Positions 48,742 through 58,475 of a DNA stretch of 64,000 nt are shown here, piece after piece. Within the stretch, counting starts at the first letter, position 1. Each line of letters opens with the position of its first letter. The position numbers were made by a program, and so were the translations under genes. The notes below the pieces were generated by a model, which made no database searches, had not been told where the DNA came from, and worked only from the letters and a program-made list of their open reading frames with translations. The DNA comes from Rhodohalobacter sulfatireducens (GTDB taxonomy: Bacteria; Bacteroidota; Rhodothermia; Balneolales; Balneolaceae): the NCBI RefSeq assembly GCF_022012475.1, contig NZ_JAKLWS010000001.1, forward strand, positions 1 through 64,000, written 5' to 3'.

Positions 48742-50208
48742 ATGGACCGAAAAACCTTTTTAAAATATACAGGAGCCAGTGCAGGTTTATTGTTGGCTCC
48801 CTCCATTATAACATCATGCGTTACTGATGGTACCAGCCGTTCGGAACTCTATCAATATCCACTCCAGTTTCCCGAAAGTTTGGATCGTGATGAACTAAAA
48901 GCGTCTCCCAGCAACCTTACTATTGCCGGAGAATATTCTTTAGACGCTTTCTTGTTTAACGGAAGTTTACCTGGTCCCACAATTCGTAAAAGAAGAGGAG
49001 AACGATTTCAAATCCAATTTCAAAATGATATTGGGCAGGAAAGCATTATCCACTGGCACGGAATGATCGTACCTCCGGAAATGGACGGGCACCCAAAAGA
49101 CGTAATTTCTGAGGGAAATTATTCGTATGATTTCAAAATCAATCAACGCGCCGGAACCTATTGGTATCACCCGCATCCTCATCAAATTACAGGACCTCAA
49201 GTGTATCGCGGATTAGCAGGTTTTTTTATTGTTACAGATGAAGAGGAAGAAGCACTCAACCTACCCTCTGGAGAATTTGAAATACCACTGATCATTCAGG
49301 ATCGAAAAATAGACGACTCTGGTAACTTATACTACAACCCTTCCATGCCGGAACGTATGATGACGGGCTATTTGGGCGAGCATATATTTATTAATGGTGT
49401 CCCCAACCCACATCATGAAGTTCAGGCCAGACCTTACCGCCTGAGATTGTTGAATGGTTCCAATGCCAGAATCTATAATATTGCTTTTCGCAATGGACAT
49501 TCTTTTACCGTGATAGGTTCAGACGGGGGACTTTTACCTCAACCTGTTGAAACTTCGGAACTTCTGATAGCACCCGGAGAACGGGCAGATTTACTGGTTG
49601 ATTTCTCAGAAGGATTTTCCGGAAACTCAACAGAGTTAATCAGCAAAGAGTTTTCAGTGCCTTCAAATGGAGGAATGATGGGAAACATGCCTCAAATGAT
49701 GGGACAGGGAGGGCCTGAACAAGGTATTGAATTTCCATTAATGAAATTCCGCATTAACAATGATGTGGACTCATCGCCTTCGATCAATCTTCCCCAACAG
49801 CTTTCTGAGATCAATTTTCCTTCCCGGAATGATGTCGTGCGAGAGCGAGAGATAGAGCTAAACATGGAGATGATGACCGGACACACCATTAACGGGCGGC
49901 TCTTTGAAATGCTACGCGTTGATGAACAAATAAGCCAGGGAGATACAGAAATTTGGGAATTCATAAACAACTCCGCTGTTCCCCATCCTATGCATATACA
50001 TGCTGTACAATTTAAAGTGTTAAACCGAAGCGGTTATCGAGACCTAATTCCAACCGAATCCGGATGGAAGGATACCGTTCTGGTTATGCCGGGAGAACGA
50101 GTTCGAGTGATTATGACATTCAATGCTCAGAGCGGATTGTATGTATTTCACTGCCATAATTTAGAACATGAAGATGCAGGTATGATGGCAAATTTAGAAA
50201 TTACTTAA
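48742..50208 (+). CDS. Multicopper oxidase (CueO-like)
   Basis: A 488-aa exported protein. The N-terminus MDRKTFLKYTGASAGLLLAP and SIITSC suggests a Tat-like lipoprotein signal, although only an RK pair, not RR, is present. All four copper motifs are seen: HWHG, WYHPHPH, HPMHIH and HCHNLEHEDAGM. A Met-rich insert (GGMMGNMPQMMGQGG, about residues 311-325) resembles the CueO cuprous-binding region. Role: oxidises toxic Cu(I) to Cu(II) in the periplasm. It is six bases after the SHOCT gene. Confidence 0.92.
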   Translation: MDRKTFLKYTGASAGLLLAPSIITSCVTDGTSRSELYQYPLQFPESLDRDELKASPSNLTIAGEYSLDAFLFNGSLPGPTIRKRRGERFQIQFQNDIGQESIIHWHGMIVPPEMDGHPKDVISEGNYSYDFKINQRAGTYWYHPHPHQITGPQVYRGLAGFFIVTDEEEEALNLPSGEFEIPLIIQDRKIDDSGNLYYNPSMPERMMTGYLGEHIFINGVPNPHHEVQARPYRLRLLNGSNARIYNIAFRNGHSFTVIGSDGGLLPQPVETSELLIAPGERADLLVDFSEGFSGNSTELISKEFSVPSNGGMMGNMPQMMGQGGPEQGIEFPLMKFRINNDVDSSPSINLPQQLSEINFPSRNDVVREREIELNMEMMTGHTINGRLFEMLRVDEQISQGDTEIWEFINNSAVPHPMHIHAVQFKVLNRSGYRDLIPTESGWKDTVLVMPGERVRVIMTFNAQSGLYVFHCHNLEHEDAGMMANLEIT

Positions 50209-50263
50209 GGGTAGGTAATAATAATAATAACAAAACAGTGATTACTTAAACCTATTATGACCC

Positions 50264-50824
50264 ATGCGAATTTACATCAAAAATATGGTATGTGGCCGTT
50301 GCAAACAGGCTGTTAGAACAACACTTGAGGAAGTGGGACTTCAACCTGTTCAGGTAGAGCTGGGCGAGGTGAAGTTGCAGGAAGAGGATATTTCTTCCTT
50401 GAAAGACACTCTTGTAAAAAAACTACAAAGCCAAGGCTTTGATTTGCTCGACGATAAACGAACTCAAACAATTGAAAGAGTGAAGAATCTGATTACGGAT
50501 CTGGTTCATAATAAGAACAATGCTCTTGAAATGAATTTATCCGACTACCTTGTGAACGAACTCCACAAAGACTACAGCCATCTGAGCAATCTTTTTTCTG
50601 AAGTCGAAGGCATTAATATCGAGAAATACTACATCCTCCAAAAAATCGAAAGGGTTAAGGAGTTGTTATTCTATAATGAACTTACATTGAGTGAAATTGC
50701 CTTCCAACTCAACTATTCAAGTACCGCCCACCTCAGCAATCAGTTTAAAAGTGTGACCGGTTCAACACCCACACAGTTCAAAAACCTGAGAAACGCGCAC
50801 CGACACCCGCTGGATGATCTGTAA
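50264..50824 (+). CDS. HMA-AraC fusion transcription regulator
   Basis: A 186-aa protein. Residues 1-65 look like a short heavy-metal-associated domain with C10 and C13 in MVCGRC. Residues about 85-186 are an AraC-type DNA-binding domain with the two helix-turn-helix units (LTLSEIAFQLNYSSTAHLS and TGSTPTQFKNLR). Inference: a one-component sensor in which Cu(I) or Ag(I) binds the HMA cysteines and alters DNA binding. It sits between the oxidase and the CopZ/CopB genes and is the only apparent regulator in the island. Confidence 0.85.
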   Translation: MRIYIKNMVCGRCKQAVRTTLEEVGLQPVQVELGEVKLQEEDISSLKDTLVKKLQSQGFDLLDDKRTQTIERVKNLITDLVHNKNNALEMNLSDYLVNELHKDYSHLSNLFSEVEGINIEKYYILQKIERVKELLFYNELTLSEIAFQLNYSSTAHLSNQFKSVTGSTPTQFKNLRNAHRHPLDDL

Positions 50825-50924
50825 ATCTTTTAACTCAATCCCTATGCCAAAACTTTATAACAATCTCCAAAAATCCTGTAACAAAAAGTTTGATTGAATC
50901 ACTTAGATTTTTTCTGAAATTACT

Positions 50925-51182
50925 ATGAACCAAATAAATAAAACTATGAGCACACAACAATCATCAACAAAACAAACAGTCGTACAAATTGGCGGAATGG
51001 CATGTTCCGGTTGTTCAAACGCCGTTCAAAAAGCTCTTGAAAATCAAGAAGGTGTTACAAAAGCGGCAGTCGATCTCGAAAATGAAACGGCCTCAATAAC
51101 CTATGATTCGGATTCGGTTTCAGATGATGATTTTAAACAGGCGATTGAAAAAGCCGGTTATGAGTTTAAAGGAGTTAAATAG
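50925..51182 (+). CDS. CopZ-like heavy-metal-associated domain protein
   Basis: An 85-aa single HMA domain with the metal motif GGMACSGC. ATG 50946 is an alternative start that removes seven residues; either leaves an extra N-terminal tail before the domain. Role: cytoplasmic copper chaperone that passes Cu(I) to the P-type ATPase encoded at 51404. No signal peptide is seen. Confidence 0.9.
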   Translation: MNQINKTMSTQQSSTKQTVVQIGGMACSGCSNAVQKALENQEGVTKAAVDLENETASITYDSDSVSDDDFKQAIEKAGYEFKGVK

Positions 51183-51183
51183 C

Positions 51184-51297
51184 GTGAGTTGTAAACTTAC
51201 GTCAGTTCGAGCCTGACTTGTCGGTAGACAGGCGCATCTTCGACCACTTTTGGTCTGAACTGCCTGCCCAAACCGTCGGAGAAGTCGAAAAACTCAC
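51184..51297. repeat. Inverted-repeat element between copZ-like and copB genes
   Basis: Outer GTGAGTT (51184-51190) and AACTCAC (51291-51297) arms enclose internal pairings such as TTCGACCAC/GGTCTGAA and a GTCAGTTCGAGCCTGAC-type segment. It separates the chaperone gene from copB. The remaining bases to 51403 should contain the copB promoter or leader. Confidence 0.55.
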
Positions 51298-51403
51298 TTT
51301 AAATAAGCTGTTTCACATATTGCTCACCATCCTAATACTAAGAGTATTCAAAACGAATGAGAAAGGAATACAAAAATCCTAAAACTTTAATAAGGGGAGT
51401 CTC

Positions 51404-53473
51404 ATGAACCAAGATCATAATGAACATCACAACCATAGCCAAAACAATGGTAAGCCGTCAAACCACTCCAAGCGGTCAGACGGTTCTCATAACCACAATC
51501 ACGGGGGCCAGGAAGGCCATTCACATCGTGAGCATCATAAAATGATGGTGGAGGATTTTAAATTCCGGTTTTGGTGGGTTCTGGCGCTAACTATTCCCAT
51601 TCTCGCCCTCTCCCCAATGATCCAGGAATTTATGGGAGTTGACTGGCGGTTTACCAATGATTCCTGGATTCTTGCCGCACTTTCAACTGTAGTCTTTTTC
51701 TTTGGTGGCTGGCCGTTCTTAACAGGCCTTGTTGACGAGCTTAAGGAAAAACAACCCGGTATGATGACGCTCATCGGCCTGGCGATCACGGTAGCCTATG
51801 TATATAGTACAGCTGTGGTCTTTGGGTTTGATGGCCATCTGCTCTATTGGGAGCTGTCTACCCTGGTTGGAATCATGCTGCTGGGACATTGGGTGGAGAT
51901 GCGATCTGTATTGAGTGCTTCTGCTGCTCTTGAGGAGTTGGCAGAACTTTTGCCCGGGGAAGCACATCGTGTGAAAGAGGATGGATCCACCGAAGATGTA
52001 CCCCTGGAACAATTGAAAAAAGGTGACAAAGTACTCATTAAACCGGGAGAAAAAATTCCTGCGGATGGAACTGTTGTTAAAGGTGAATCCAGCGTGAATG
52101 AGGCGATGCTTACGGGTGAATCCAAACCGGTCAATAAATCTAAAGATGATGAAGTAATCGGCGGGTCGGTCAATGGTAAAGGTTCGCTTACGATTGAGAT
52201 TAAGAAAACCGGTGATGAATCATTTCTCTCTCAGGTGGTTGATCTTGTGAGGCAAGCCCAGGAAAGTAAATCCAAAACTCAGGATCTTGCGAATCAGGCC
52301 GCTTTCTGGCTGACGATTATTGCGATTTCTGCCGGAGCATTAACCTTTGCAGGATGGGCATTTTTTACCGGACAGGATATCAGTTTTATCATGAACCGAA
52401 CCGTTACGGTGATGGTGATTACATGTCCGCACGCACTTGGATTGGCTATTCCGCTGGTCGTTTCTGTCTCCACAAGTTTGGCCGCAACCAATGGATTCCT
52501 GATCCGGAACCGTGCCGCATTCGAACAGTCGCGAAATCTGCAGGCCGTCATCTTTGATAAAACCGGAACGCTTACCGAGGGCACGTTTTCAGTTACGGAT
52601 GTTCTCAATTTCAACGATCAATTTTCTGATGACGAGATCTTAACCTACGCCGCATCCCTCGAAACCAATTCGGAGCATCCCATCGCCAAAGGTATTTTAG
52701 AAAGAGCTGAAAACACGTTGGATGTGGATGAATTTAATTCCATCACCGGAAAAGGGATTGAAGGCGTTGTAGATGGAAAAAATGTGAAGGTGGTGAGTCC
52801 GGGTTACATTCGCGAAGCTGAAATGGACTATCCGAAAAAGAAAGTTGAGGAAATATCGTCACAAGGCAAAACAGTAGTATTTGTGATTATTGAAGATAAA
52901 CTTTGCGGGGCTGTGGCATTGGGAGATAAAATTCGGGAATCATCCCGTAATGCGATCAAAACCTTGCATGAAATGGGACTTGAATGCGTTATGTTAACCG
53001 GCGATAACCAACAAACTGCCGATTATGTTGCCAAAGAACTGAATATCGACCAGGTGTTCGCGGAAGTCCTGCCCGATGAAAAAGCGGATAAAGTAAAAGA
53101 AGTTCAAGGTCAGGGAAAACGTGTTGCCATGACGGGCGACGGTGTGAATGACGCCCCCGCCCTTGCTCAGGCTGATGTTGGAATCGCCATAGGTGCCGGT
53201 TCAGATGTAGCCGTTGAAACCGGAGATATAGTATTGGTTAAAGACAACCCTGAAGATGTTGTCAACCTCATCAAACTGTCGGGAGCTACCTACAACAAAA
53301 TGATTCAAAACCTGGCCTGGGCGACCGGTTATAACGTCATTACGATTCCGCTTGCAGCCGGTGTTTTATATAGCTGGGGAATCATTTTGAGTCCGGCCGT
53401 GGGAGCCGTGTTGATGTCGTTAAGTACGGTAATTGTCGCAGTAAATGCTCGGTTTTTGAAGATGGAGAAGTAA
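51404..53473 (+). CDS. copB: Copper/silver P-type ATPase, CopB class
   Basis: A 689-aa ATPase. It has a His-rich N-terminal tract in place of HMA domains (HNEHHNHSQNN...HREHH). The membrane motif is CPH (residues 341-343, TCPHALGL), the P1B-3/CopB signature, not the CPC of CopA. The phosphorylation motif DKTGT starts at D385, and the TGDGVND hinge is present. Role: ATP-driven export of copper, possibly Cu(II) or Ag(I). The start is preceded by AAGGGGAG, a good ribosome binding site. Confidence 0.93.
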   Translation: MNQDHNEHHNHSQNNGKPSNHSKRSDGSHNHNHGGQEGHSHREHHKMMVEDFKFRFWWVLALTIPILALSPMIQEFMGVDWRFTNDSWILAALSTVVFFFGGWPFLTGLVDELKEKQPGMMTLIGLAITVAYVYSTAVVFGFDGHLLYWELSTLVGIMLLGHWVEMRSVLSASAALEELAELLPGEAHRVKEDGSTEDVPLEQLKKGDKVLIKPGEKIPADGTVVKGESSVNEAMLTGESKPVNKSKDDEVIGGSVNGKGSLTIEIKKTGDESFLSQVVDLVRQAQESKSKTQDLANQAAFWLTIIAISAGALTFAGWAFFTGQDISFIMNRTVTVMVITCPHALGLAIPLVVSVSTSLAATNGFLIRNRAAFEQSRNLQAVIFDKTGTLTEGTFSVTDVLNFNDQFSDDEILTYAASLETNSEHPIAKGILERAENTLDVDEFNSITGKGIEGVVDGKNVKVVSPGYIREAEMDYPKKKVEEISSQGKTVVFVIIEDKLCGAVALGDKIRESSRNAIKTLHEMGLECVMLTGDNQQTADYVAKELNIDQVFAEVLPDEKADKVKEVQGQGKRVAMTGDGVNDAPALAQADVGIAIGAGSDVAVETGDIVLVKDNPEDVVNLIKLSGATYNKMIQNLAWATGYNVITIPLAAGVLYSWGIILSPAVGAVLMSLSTVIVAVNARFLKMEK

Positions 53474-53859: not shown

Positions 53860-54786
53860 TTGGAAATTACCAGCGAGCTATCAGTTACATCCGAGCAAAT
53901 TGCCAGCCTCGAGATGCACTCCGTCATCAATATTCTATCCGTAATTTCGGGGCAGTTGCGACTCATCCAGATGGAAACAGAAAATCAGGACTTGATTGAA
54001 CCTGTAATTGATATGAGTAATACTCTTGCTGATTCTTGCTCATCAAAAGACAAGCGGGGTTTAACACTCGAATCACTCAGGGAGTTTAGAAAAGCAGTAT
54101 TTTCGGCTTTGGATGAGTTGGAGAGTCGAAACTATCCACATAATAGTAGACCCTCCTTTTCTGAACACAAAGAGAACCTGACCAACATTTTTAACGTGTT
54201 TGATGTAAGAATGATGGAACTTTTGCACAGGTGGGAGAGTCCCGGGACCTGGGATTCCTTTAACTCAAAAAGTTTTGTCGGCGATTTTAAGAAGTTTTTC
54301 TACGCGATGGAGAAAAACAGTAAGGGCAGATATAAAATAACCTACAATATTGCTGAGCAAAAAGAGACAGACTATCTGGTCCATTTTGCTGTCAACAGCG
54401 ACGCTAAAGATAACAGGATCTATCTGCCGCTCATATTGAAAGACGTGATTCGAGACCTGATTGCCAATGCCAGGAAATACACACCTCCCGGCGGTGAAAT
54501 AAACATCGGCATCTCGCAAAAAAACCAGGCCTTTAAGTTTGTAGTTGAAGATAATGGTTATGGAATCCCGGAGGATGAAATTTCAAATGTTGTTGAATTT
54601 GGGGTTCGTGGAAGTAACGTAAAAGATAATGTGCGTACCATGGGTGGCGGATTCGGACTTACAAAAGCCTACTTTTTTGTTAAAGAACTGGATGGCAAAA
54701 TGTGGATTGACTCAAAATTAAATGAAGGCACAAAGATTATCATTAAAATTCCCATTCCCGACCGAGTCAATAAGAAATTTGGATAA
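53860..54786 (+). CDS. Soluble histidine-kinase core protein
   Basis: A 308-aa protein with a TTG start at 53860; the next ATG (53914) would cut into the first helix. Residues 13-40 contain an H-box-like helix with H20 and N24 (EMHSVINIL). Residues about 190-300 are a HATPase domain with the N box (DLIANARKY), VEDNGYGIP and GGGFGLTKAYFF. No sensor or membrane region is visible in the first 190 residues, which are mostly helical. No response regulator is adjacent. It lies 166 bases before the RsbW-GNAT gene. Confidence 0.75.
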   Translation: MEITSELSVTSEQIASLEMHSVINILSVISGQLRLIQMETENQDLIEPVIDMSNTLADSCSSKDKRGLTLESLREFRKAVFSALDELESRNYPHNSRPSFSEHKENLTNIFNVFDVRMMELLHRWESPGTWDSFNSKSFVGDFKKFFYAMEKNSKGRYKITYNIAEQKETDYLVHFAVNSDAKDNRIYLPLILKDVIRDLIANARKYTPPGGEINIGISQKNQAFKFVVEDNGYGIPEDEISNVVEFGVRGSNVKDNVRTMGGGFGLTKAYFFVKELDGKMWIDSKLNEGTKIIIKIPIPDRVNKKFG

Positions 54787-54952
54787 TTGAACTTTATTAT
54801 AGGAAGCAAAATTTCTCAAATCTTTAGAATTGATTCATTGCAAAGCTCTGTCTTGTAGGAATAAACTCCACTTCTGCCGCAGGTTCTTTCCTATAGCTCT
54901 TTCTTCCGAAAACGTATAATATTCCATTTTAAGAATTAATGGGATTCTAACG

Positions 54953-56434
54953 ATGGAAGCACACCTCTTGCTGGAATCTAAATTGGAGATGATTGGTACA
55001 GTAACTGATTTTACATACAAATGGTGTGTAAATATGGGATTTGATGAGCACAGCGCTGCAAGAATGGCTCTATCTGTGGATGAGATTCTGACAGATATTG
55101 TACTCTACGCATTTAAAGATGAAAAAGGGTATGTAGAAATCTGGTACCAATATACACCATCTGAAATAGAGATTATCATCCAGGAAAAAGGGGAGCCGTT
55201 TGATCCGGAAAGACATACTTACAACAGAGAAAAAGCGTTGATCGAAGGCGACTTTAAGGGGGCATCCCTTGAAACGGTTCAAAAAATGACAGATCACTTT
55301 CTTTTCTTAAACCGTGGAAAAGACGGTAAAGAATACAGGCTCGTTCAAAAGTATAGTTTTCCACACATTCTAGACCTTGTTCCGAACGAATATGATTTTG
55401 AAAAAGATGAAGATCCCGAGTCTGAACACAACTATCTAGTCACTCCGATTACAAGTGAGGATGCCGAAGATATTGCAAAACTGATTTATCGGTCATATAG
55501 CTACAGCTACCCAAAAGAAGATCTTTATTTTCCACGTCGCCTTGAAACAGCCATTTACAATGAGTACAAATATGGTACGATTGTGCGTACTCAATCTGGA
55601 AGACCTGTCGGATATTTTGCCGTCGTAAAGAGTACCGACTCAATGATCGGGGAAGTAACCGAGGCAGTGGTTTCACCACGACATCGTAACCGCGGATTGA
55701 TGAAAAAAATGATGCTTCATTTGATAGAAATGAGCCGTTCGGGGGGTTTGTCGGGGCTCTTTGGCATGGCAATGACCAACCATCTATTTAGCCAAAAGGT
55801 AAACAGCAGGTACGGTTTTAAGAGCACAGCACTGATCATCTCGAAAACCGGCAAGAGGACCTTAAAGGGAATGGAAAAGAGTCATCTGGACATGGTAAGT
55901 GTAATCCTGGACTTTTTGCCTCTGACAAAGCAATGGCAGCGCCCTCCCTGTTTGCCGAAAGACTACGCCGAACTTTTCTCTGAAATATATAATCAGTTTG
56001 AAGAACAGGATGAAAGCTCTGTGAAACAAAAACCCGCCGGCAGTAAGTCTGAGAAGACAGATATGAACTTGTCAATTAATTACGAAAGTCAATCGGCACT
56101 GATTACAGTTAAAACTTATGGCTCCACTTTCGTGGGAAGCTGTATGAGAATGCTGAAAAGTACAGAAGAATTAACGCTGACATCTCTCTATATAGACCTT
56201 CCTTTGGATGATCCATATATAGATTCTGCGATTACCTGGCTCAAAGATCATGGGTTTATTCTCGCCGGTCTTGTACCCTTTTTCCACCAGGAGGAGGATT
56301 ACCTTCGGATGCAGCGTTTTTTTAAAGATGTAAACTTCAACGAGATTCAAACTTATTCTGAAGTAGCAGGGAAACTAAAAAAAGTGATTCAAGATGAATA
56401 CAATGAACTACAAAAAAACCAGTCAGAAGCTTGA
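54953..56434 (+). CDS. RsbW-like ATPase domain fused to GNAT acetyltransferase
   Basis: A 493-aa protein. Residues about 1-135 resemble the anti-sigma/RsbW HATPase (MALSVDEILTDIVLYAF, then KGEPFDPERH). The usual N-box asparagine appears to be aspartate (ILTDIV). Residues about 155-315 are a GNAT domain with VSPRHRNRGLMKKMMLHL carrying the acetyl-CoA motif RxxGxx. Residues about 370-480 form a further alpha/beta domain of unknown type. Inference: a switch protein that links phosphorylation or nucleotide state to acetylation. Its last 41 bases overlap the STAS-like gene. Confidence 0.75.
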   Translation: MEAHLLLESKLEMIGTVTDFTYKWCVNMGFDEHSAARMALSVDEILTDIVLYAFKDEKGYVEIWYQYTPSEIEIIIQEKGEPFDPERHTYNREKALIEGDFKGASLETVQKMTDHFLFLNRGKDGKEYRLVQKYSFPHILDLVPNEYDFEKDEDPESEHNYLVTPITSEDAEDIAKLIYRSYSYSYPKEDLYFPRRLETAIYNEYKYGTIVRTQSGRPVGYFAVVKSTDSMIGEVTEAVVSPRHRNRGLMKKMMLHLIEMSRSGGLSGLFGMAMTNHLFSQKVNSRYGFKSTALIISKTGKRTLKGMEKSHLDMVSVILDFLPLTKQWQRPPCLPKDYAELFSEIYNQFEEQDESSVKQKPAGSKSEKTDMNLSINYESQSALITVKTYGSTFVGSCMRMLKSTEELTLTSLYIDLPLDDPYIDSAITWLKDHGFILAGLVPFFHQEEDYLRMQRFFKDVNFNEIQTYSEVAGKLKKVIQDEYNELQKNQSEA

Positions 56435-56693
56435 AGTAGAACTGACTGGTGATTTTAATCTCAAAGCTGTGAGAAAAATATCTGACCTGCTCGGTGATGG
56501 AAGTGAACTTTTCATCAATTTGAAAAATGCCAGATTCGTGAATAGCAAGGCGATCATTTTTCTTCATAAACTTATGCAAGGAAATCCCCGGGTAGTTGTT
56601 CGTTTGAAGAATCCTCCAAAAATCTTTTTTGAGCTTCTGCAAACGCTTGGCCTTCACAGAATTTGGGAACTCGACGAGATAGTAGAACCTTAA
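56394..56693 (+). CDS. STAS-like anti-sigma antagonist
   Basis: A 99-aa protein with the strand-helix pattern of STAS domains: LEVELTGDFNLKAVRKI, then ELFINLKNARFVNSKAI, where S51 sits at the position phosphorylated in SpoIIAA-type proteins (usual context DSSG, here NSKA). ATG 56394 or 56403 lies inside the upstream gene, giving a 41 or 32 base overlap and strong coupling. It is the natural binding partner of the RsbW-like domain encoded before it. Confidence 0.72.
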   Translation: MNTMNYKKTSQKLEVELTGDFNLKAVRKISDLLGDGSELFINLKNARFVNSKAIIFLHKLMQGNPRVVVRLKNPPKIFFELLQTLGLHRIWELDEIVEP

Positions 56694-56705: not shown

Positions 56706-57311
56706 ATGGAAGAAAACAAATCGATTTTAACCTCACTTAACCTTGATTTCCCGGTTTGGGAACAGATCTTTACGGTTCATCCTTTGGTCATCGTTGGAAC
56801 GGTTGGAAGGGATTCATCTCAGAATTTTGCCCCCAAACATATGGCGTTTCCGCTGGGCTGGAAAAACTATTTTGGATTTGTTTGTACCCCAAAACATCAA
56901 ACCTATCAAAACATCAAAGAAACCGGGGTGTTTACTGTAACCTACCCAAAGCCCGACCAGGTTGTCATCACCAGTTTAACAGCATCCCCGCGTTGTGATG
57001 ACGGAACCAAGCCCGATTTGAAACCCATCAAAACATTTCCGGCCTCTGAAATTGATGGCCATTTTATTGAAGACGGGTATGTTTTCCTGGAATGCAAATT
57101 AAAGAAATTTGTAGATGGCTTTGGTGAAAACAGCCTGATACTTGCCGAAATTGTTGCAGCCAGGGCCTGGAGTGATGTGATTAAAAATCCATCGCATTCT
57201 GATAATGAAACAATTTACAACCACCCGCAGCTGGCCTATATCGCCCCCGGCCGTTATGCCGTCATTGACGAGACACAGGCATTTCCGTTTCCGAAAGACT
57301 TTAAGAAATGA
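56706..57311 (+). CDS. Flavin reductase-like FMN-binding split-barrel protein
   Basis: A 201-aa cytoplasmic protein. VIVGTVGRDSSQNFAPKHM, then FVCTPKHQTYQNIKETGVFTVTYP, matches the flavin reductase-like domain family, which binds FMN and often reduces flavins or acts as an oxidoreductase. The start is 12 bases after the STAS-like gene and the end is three bases before the peptidase gene, so it belongs to the same transcript. Its substrate and link to the signalling proteins are unknown. Confidence 0.83.
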   Translation: MEENKSILTSLNLDFPVWEQIFTVHPLVIVGTVGRDSSQNFAPKHMAFPLGWKNYFGFVCTPKHQTYQNIKETGVFTVTYPKPDQVVITSLTASPRCDDGTKPDLKPIKTFPASEIDGHFIEDGYVFLECKLKKFVDGFGENSLILAEIVAARAWSDVIKNPSHSDNETIYNHPQLAYIAPGRYAVIDETQAFPFPKDFKK

Positions 57312-57314
57312 CCC

Positions 57315-58475
57315 ATGATTCCGAAAGCAGAAACCGAAACCATACTAAATGAATGCCTCTCACGTGAACAGGAGTTCCTGACGCTTCTCGAAGAGCTGGT
57401 AAATATTGAAACTCCACCGGGAGATATATCATCACATGAAAAGCTCTTTGATCGAATTCAGAAGGAACTTGAATCCCTGGATTATACAACAAATCACTAT
57501 CCAAGTAAGAAAAGCGGAGGACAAATTCTTTCACGGCCTGATGCTGATCATGGAAGTGTATATCAATTACTGCTTGGACATATTGATACGGTTTGGCCGG
57601 AGGGTACACTGGAAAAAATGCCTTTTAACAATGAGGGTAATGTTTTTACAGGTCCCGGTATTTATGATATGAAGGCGGGTATAAGCATGATGATTTTGGC
57701 ACTTAAAATTATGAAGGATCTTGATTTGGAGCCAACTGTTCATCCTGTTCTTTTCATCAACTCGGACGAGGAAACCGGTAGCCGTGAGTCTGTTTACAGA
57801 ATAAAAAACCTGGCGCGGACAATGAACAGGGCATATGTACTGGAACCATCGCTTGATCCCGACGGAAAACTTAAAACACGCAGAAAAGGAGTGGGTCATT
57901 TCGATATAGAGATTAAGGGGGTTTCCTCTCATGCGGGAATTGAACCTGAAAAGGGAAGAAGTGCCATCGTGGAGCTCTCCTACCTCATTCAAAAACTAAA
58001 TGAACTCAATGATCCGGAAAATGGAATCTCAGTAAATGTGGGTAAAATCGGTGGAGGTACGAATACAAATGTGGTGGCCGGTGAAAGCAGTGCAGCTGTA
58101 GATGTTCGGGTATTGACAAAAAAAGACGCAAAACGCATCAAACAAAAGATCTTGGAAATTGAACCCACCACACCCGGTGTCAAATTAAATATTTCGGGAG
58201 GCTTTAAGCGACCTCCCTTGGTACGTAATCAGAGAAACAGGAAACTCTGGAAAGAAGCACTAAGAATTGGAAAGAGATTAGATCTCAAACTTACAGAGGG
58301 CATTTCAGGAGGCGGATCTGACGGTAGCTACACAAGCCAGTTTACCGCTACGCTTGACGGTTTGGGAGCTGTGGGGGATGGTGCCCACAGCCCAACCGAA
58401 AAAATCTTCCTCGACAAAACACTGGAACGTACGGCGCTTTTAATTCACCTGTTGCTGCTCCCCGAATTAGAGTAG
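57315..58475 (+). CDS. M20 family metallopeptidase (carboxypeptidase G2-like)
   Basis: A 386-aa protein. Zinc-site blocks are GHIDTVWPEGTL (His, Asp), GPGIYDMKAG (Asp) and NSDEETGS (Glu pair), with a dimerisation domain in the middle (VSSHAGIEPEKGRSAI). GISGGGSDGSYTS and GDGAHSPTE are late conserved blocks. It resembles glutamate carboxypeptidase and related amidohydrolases. No signal peptide is present, so it should be cytoplasmic. It is the last gene of the plus-strand run and converges on the TonB receptor. Confidence 0.88.
   Translation: MIPKAETETILNECLSREQEFLTLLEELVNIETPPGDISSHEKLFDRIQKELESLDYTTNHYPSKKSGGQILSRPDADHGSVYQLLLGHIDTVWPEGTLEKMPFNNEGNVFTGPGIYDMKAGISMMILALKIMKDLDLEPTVHPVLFINSDEETGSRESVYRIKNLARTMNRAYVLEPSLDPDGKLKTRRKGVGHFDIEIKGVSSHAGIEPEKGRSAIVELSYLIQKLNELNDPENGISVNVGKIGGGTNTNVVAGESSAAVDVRVLTKKDAKRIKQKILEIEPTTPGVKLNISGGFKRPPLVRNQRNRKLWKEALRIGKRLDLKLTEGISGGGSDGSYTSQFTATLDGLGAVGDGAHSPTEKIFLDKTLERTALLIHLLLLPELE

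Follow-up and report, generated by a model that had tools for sequence, protein, structure and literature searches.

A partner-switch fold fused to a GNAT acetyltransferase domain and paired with a STAS gene in Balneolaceae and other bacteria

Gene content of the locus

The window, i.e., the whole 64,000-nucleotide stretch of Rhodohalobacter sulfatireducens DNA analyzed here, contains a gene joining an RsbW/SpoIIAB-type fold to a GNAT acetyltransferase domain. The gene for a STAS partner overlaps its 3′ end, genes for a flavin reductase-like protein and an M20 family hydrolase follow, and an orphan histidine kinase gene lies upstream (Table 1). The open reading frames of the kinase, the fusion and the STAS protein were all present at the coordinates first given in a sequence-only reading of this DNA, and on comparative sequence grounds all three genes are under selection. 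Fusion orthologues are 36–89% identical across Balneolaceae. A copper-type cluster, annotated by eye, is located at 48742–53473; it encodes a multicopper oxidase, an AraC-type HTH protein with an N-terminal MVCGRCK motif, a heavy-metal-associated protein and a P-type ATPase.

Table 1. Features of the fusion locus, in window coordinates.
Feature	Position	Strand	Details
Orphan cytosolic histidine kinase gene	53860..54786	+	HATPase_c 3e-17; neighbour, outside the module
RsbW-GNAT fusion gene	54953..56434	+	493 aa; ORF, Pfam, structure model
RsbW/SpoIIAB-fold (HATPase_c_2) domain, altered ATP site	54953..55357	+	Fusion residues 1–135; fold and profile match
N box E44-x-x-x-D48 of the fusion (canonical RsbW: Asn)	55082..55096	+	Alignment
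GNAT acetyltransferase domain	55430..55942	+	Fusion residues 160–330; fold and Acetyltransf_1
Tyrosine signature Y179-R-S-Y-x-Y-x-Y...Y192-x-P194	55487..55534	+	Most conserved stretch among fusion relatives
GNAT motif A / P-loop VVSPRHRNRGLMKKM	55667..55711	+	Aligned to Eis2 VSPTHRRRGLLTTMM; R245 invariant
Conserved C-terminal domain of the fusion	55958..56431	+	Residues 336–493
STAS partner gene	56394..56693, start 56394 or 56403	+	Overlaps 3′ end of the fusion
STAS Ser51	56544..56546	+	RsbV/SpoIIAA phospho-acceptor position; opens second helix of the model
Flavin reductase-like gene	56706..57311	+	Pfam Flavin_Reduct 1.8e-14; linked to and co-inherited with the fusion in Balneolaceae
M20 family hydrolase gene	57315..58475	+	Pfam 2.4e-20; last gene of the conserved block

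A four-gene block conserved in Balneolaceae

The order fusion–STAS–flavin reductase–M20 is intact at 14 loci in 13 further genomes of the family, one of which carries the block twice, and on four additional Balneolaceae contigs. With the window included, this amounts to 19 of 19 readable loci, a count that leaves out one contig ending inside the fusion. The genes flanking the block vary freely, and the real unit is these four genes, without the kinase. Homologues of the kinase, 35–76% identical over their full length, are found throughout the order, in many cases in genomes that lack the fusion; H20, the catalytic residue, is the same in all six that were compared. The kinase is found upstream of the fusion only in the nearest relative, G005, and is unlinked to it in G023 and G028; we therefore treat it as a neighbor and reject it as a module member. 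The gene-order conservation proposed as a check in the sequence-only reading thus holds for the block, while the module boundary drawn there stands for the fusion and STAS genes and fails for the kinase. The kinase itself represents an orphan soluble family found across the order, with an EMHSVIN H-box and no recognized HisKA or sensor domain; no response regulator was seen beside it in the window.

Of 59 related genomes, 10 have the flavin reductase gene, and these are precisely the 10 with the fusion; where the fusion is doubled, so is the flavin reductase gene (Fisher p 1.6e-11, a value overstated because the genomes are related). Five genomes that lack the fusion nevertheless carry relatives of the M20 gene. 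Neither gene adjoins the fusion outside Balneolaceae. The earlier suggestion that the two products could be targets of acetylation finds no support, and they resemble partners of the fusion in a pathway more than its substrates. A scheme in which the histidine kinase feeds the switch and these two proteins are its acetylated targets is very improbable: the kinase is physically near the fusion in the window and in G005, but its orthologues lie elsewhere in other genomes, many of them fusion-free, and in G005 itself an IS110-like gene (transposase named by eye) splits the two.

One genome (G003) carries two diverged copies of the whole block (L057, L064), their fusions being 77% (first copy) and 41% (second copy) identical to that of the window. 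In five Balneolaceae (L060, L061, L062, L067, L083) the block is near a PAS-type kinase gene, with a response regulator in four, and some of these loci have universal-stress or Hsp20-like genes (named by eye) nearby, which suggests a stress region.

The RsbW-fold domain and its altered ATP site

The N-terminal part of the fusion matches Pfam HATPase_c_2 (residues 8–127, 2.9e-8) and an RsbW profile (E 1.4e-16); its score against the NCBIfam RsbW equivalog is below the cut-off (25.6 vs 145 bits). In an AlphaFold model of the fusion built on 34 sequences (pLDDT 83.2), a GHKL fold of the RsbW/SpoIIAB type is present in residues 1–135, comparable with SpoIIAB (1th8_A; Z 18.2, rmsd 2.1, 127 residues) and RsbW (6m37_C; Z 18.0, rmsd 1.4, 114 residues).

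The ATP site of this domain is degenerate, a feature overlooked in the sequence-only reading. The N-box Asn for Mg-ATP is absent from the window fusion, where the position is D48; among 22 Balneolaceae and Aquificota sequences, D48 is found in 20 and Asn in 2, E44 of the N box is invariant (22/22), and the G1 Asp is changed to Glu (D78E) in 21. The G2 (GxG) glycines of the ATP lid are likewise absent from the window fusion, which reads KGAS-L there, and GxG is replaced in the fusions of this clade. GLG or GIG at G2 is confined to Ignavibacteria, Cloacimonadota and some other lineages; fusions of the first two keep both the N-box Asn and GxG.

Mean identity within the Balneolaceae/Aquificota clade is 52–56% for the RsbW domain and 61% for the GNAT domain. 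The former is thus nearly as conserved as the latter, which argues that the domain is used although its ATP motifs have changed in concert. On sequence grounds the altered site suggests a new role for the domain more than decay, and we reject a decaying remnant for this clade. The domain is probably a docking pseudokinase, whose loss of ATP binding we infer from the substituted motifs. With the usual N-box Asn and G2 glycines missing, it is doubtful that kinase activity drives partner switching in the classic way in this clade. Nothing usable on how N-box substitutions affect SpoIIAB emerged from a literature search.

The GNAT domain and the C-terminal domain

Pfam Acetyltransf_1 matches fusion residues 175–269 (7.1e-8; 33.2 bits against a cut-off of 20.7), and in model comparisons residues 160–330 match GNAT structures at Z ~13 and rmsd 2.2–2.6 over ~150 residues. 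The joining of an RsbW-like ATPase fold (Z 18) to an acetyltransferase in one chain, as first read from the sequence, is therefore confirmed. Across the family, Acetyltransf_1 is found in 34 of 34 aligned fusion proteins and HATPase_c_2 in 33.

Y179, Y182, Y184, Y186 and Y192 are invariant in the 34 aligned relatives, as are H277 and Q281 across phyla; judging by this conservation, tyrosines 179–192, H277 and Q281 probably line the substrate site. The position of the usual GNAT general-acid Tyr, which we take from a by-eye alignment and general knowledge of GNATs, is N284 in the fusion. A putative acetyl-CoA site, on which acetylation as an output would depend, is suggested by the model, which fits GNAT structures including some solved with acetyl-CoA, and by a P-loop resembling that of Eis2, an acetyltransferase with solved structures that aligns here as RRRGLL. 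The fusion P-loop RNRGLM (R245-x-x-G248-x-M250) has a bulky last position that departs from the R/QxxGxG/A consensus (PMC8556138). Together with the general-acid Tyr not being in place, this means that catalysis is not assured. Identity as AblB, the beta-lysine acetyltransferase, was rejected, the match being partial only (25.3 vs a cut-off of 205.1 bits); a sub-threshold AblB match is found in 10 of the 34 relatives.

Residues 336–493 form a third conserved domain after the RsbW fold and the GNAT, so that the domain content given earlier was correct for those two and incomplete for this region of ~160 residues. In the model, its strands and helices follow one another much as in the latter part of a GNAT, but a profile comparison with the first GNAT gave no similarity that would point to a duplicate of that domain.

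The STAS partner

The model of the window STAS protein (pLDDT 88.7) is nearest to SpoIIAA (1th8_B; E 2.2e-5, TM 0.70) and RsbV (6m36) in the PDB; its alignment included some canonical STAS partners, which may have helped the model. The protein itself matches no STAS profile above cut-off, neither Pfam STAS nor TIGR00377 (13.7 vs 53.45 bits), and Pfam STAS is matched by 12 of 17 orthologous or neighboring partners. Ser51 is the first residue of helix 51–62 of the model, and an acceptor Ser or Thr is conserved at this position in 27 of 27 aligned partners (Ser in 24). According to the model, the gene after the fusion codes for a true STAS protein.

In the window, the STAS and fusion genes share 32 or 41 nt, depending on the STAS start, and an overlap, already remarked on in the sequence-only reading, is kept at 18 of 18 Balneolaceae loci measured. 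In Aquificota, the STAS start touches the fusion stop or lies within 9 nt of it. The overlap or near-contact suggests translational coupling.

Distribution and gene context in other phyla

A genome scan identified fusion relatives, mostly full-length, in Balneolaceae, Aquificota, Ignavibacteriota, Cloacimonadota, Actinomycetota (Rubrobacteraceae), Pseudomonadota and Desulfuromonas. The grouping of the Aquificota fusions with those of Balneolaceae has full support in the tree. Fusion and STAS genes are adjacent at all readable Aquificota loci, three of which continue with an AguB-like carbon-nitrogen hydrolase (AguB score below the curated cut-off). In Ignavibacteria a canonical STAS gene precedes the fusion, with RsbW also present in L091; SpoIIE, RsbW and STAS genes lie beside the fusion in the unclassified relative L096, and a SpoIIE phosphatase gene follows it in Hydrogenovibrio. 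These fusion–STAS and STAS–fusion pairs support, by comparison, the coupling of partner switching to a GNAT that had been proposed, leaving its classic kinase-driven form in doubt given the altered ATP site. No STAS gene adjoins the fusion in Rubrobacteraceae, Cloacimonadota or Pseudomonadota, Alcaligenaceae being among the lineages checked; in Rubrobacteraceae, Alcaligenaceae and Cloacimonadota, STAS control may have been lost or be supplied from elsewhere.

The fusion could instead be a plain metabolic acyltransferase of a flavin reductase/M20 pathway, with the RsbW fold as a dimerization or structural module and the STAS protein as a passive subunit. The loss of ATP-site residues in several lineages and the perfect co-occurrence with the flavin reductase fit such an enzyme; the acceptor residue retained by every aligned STAS partner, and the intact N box with canonical STAS, RsbW and SpoIIE genes adjoining the fusion in Ignavibacteria and L096, speak against it, and we consider it unlikely.

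In Pseudomonadota and Desulfuromonas, LuxC/AMP-ligase genes precede the fusion. At six such loci (L105, L108, L113, L115, L116, L097) the relative follows a LuxC/AMP-binding fusion of ~840–880 aa, usually with an AMP-binding ligase as well, in an acyl-activation cluster; in L115 a SpoIIE phosphatase gene lies 3′ of it. Amines or acyl groups are what the products of neighboring genes in other phyla act upon, with an AguB-like amidase, an ornithine transaminase and LuxC/AMP-ligase as examples, and this weakly favors a small-molecule substrate.

Partner-switch components in the genome

The genome encodes eight SpoIIE phosphatases and a separate canonical SpoIIE–RsbW–STAS triad, located away from the fusion; together these could set the phosphorylation state of the STAS protein. 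No sigma-B/F/G factor scored over the cut-off in the genome, which is weak evidence of absence, as only 1 of 14 control genomes passed the same cut-off; a canonical sigma-B output, for which the genome offers no candidate at that level, was set aside on this weak ground.

A further possibility is that the GNAT is a sensor: acyl-CoA binding would alter the RsbW domain so that it holds or frees the STAS protein and, through it, a sigma factor or other target, thereby reporting acyl-CoA status to the partner-switch network. That the regulatory genes seen most often beside the fusion are those for STAS and RsbW, and that the P-loop is partly kept while the general acid is missing, would suit a sensor. 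Nevertheless, most family-wide invariant residues lie in the GNAT and not in the RsbW domain, the metabolic neighbors change with lineage, as expected for an enzyme, and there is the missing sigma factor candidate; the chance that the sensor interpretation is right seems small to us.

Proposed mechanism and relation to known systems

The placement of an RsbW-fold/GNAT fusion beside a STAS gene suggests that an enzyme, not a sigma factor, is the thing switched. In the model to which we give roughly even credence, the fusion is a regulated acyltransferase whose RsbW-fold domain receives the STAS protein of the overlapping gene; docking would depend on whether Ser51 is phosphorylated and would gate GNAT activity. 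As the RsbW domain here is a putative pseudokinase, any phosphorylation of Ser51 would fall to a separate RsbW, such as that of the unlinked triad, and one of the eight SpoIIE phosphatases would remove the phosphate. The substrate may be a small amine or amino compound handled together with the flavin reductase and M20 hydrolase, which we favor over protein lysines. More broadly, and more tentatively, partner switching may have been rewired in this family, an anti-sigma kinase having turned into a docking pseudokinase fused to a GNAT acyltransferase, which the bound STAS protein toggles, so that acylation rather than transcription would be the output of the SpoIIE/STAS stress pathway.

The fusion shares with RsbW/SpoIIAB–RsbV/SpoIIAA switching the fold of residues 1–135, a STAS protein with an acceptor serine encoded by the next gene and, in some relatives, nearby SpoIIE genes; it differs in carrying a GNAT, in the altered N box, G1 and G2 of the clade, and in having no sigma factor gene alongside. 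The published classification of regulated bacterial GNATs goes by the additional domain and by what metabolite that domain senses, Type III comprising the cAMP-, NADP- or ACT-regulated Pat/AAPatA/MxKat (PMC8556138). The fusion is closest to this type in having a regulatory domain N-terminal to the GNAT; acetylation of protein lysines would be a further likeness. Its own regulatory domain, an RsbW fold not listed in that classification (PMC8556138), would be expected to have a protein, not a metabolite, as its ligand, and an extra C-terminal domain is present. With Type V tandem GNATs (Eis) the fusion has in common a closely matching P-loop (VSPxHRxRGLL/M) and the presence of a conserved domain behind the GNAT; in the fusion, the secondary-structure order of that domain is compatible with a second GNAT while its profile shows no similarity to the first, an RsbW domain is added at the N-terminus, and nothing resembling the sterol-carrier fold at the C-terminus of Eis was seen. 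The non-canonical STAS systems SypA/SypE, BtrV/BtrW and RbaV/RbaW resemble the present one in that their output is not an established sigma factor, but no acetyltransferase domain is described for any of them in PMC8256260. In searches of open-access papers, which covered GNAT or LuxC combined with RsbW or anti-sigma domains as well as GNATs regulated by added domains, the fusion did not turn up.

The conserved STAS pair makes the proposed docking switch testable with two purified proteins. If correct, it would show an anti-sigma kinase losing its ATP site yet keeping its partner, and a multi-phylum GNAT family using a partner-switch domain would tie general-stress phosphatases to acylation chemistry.
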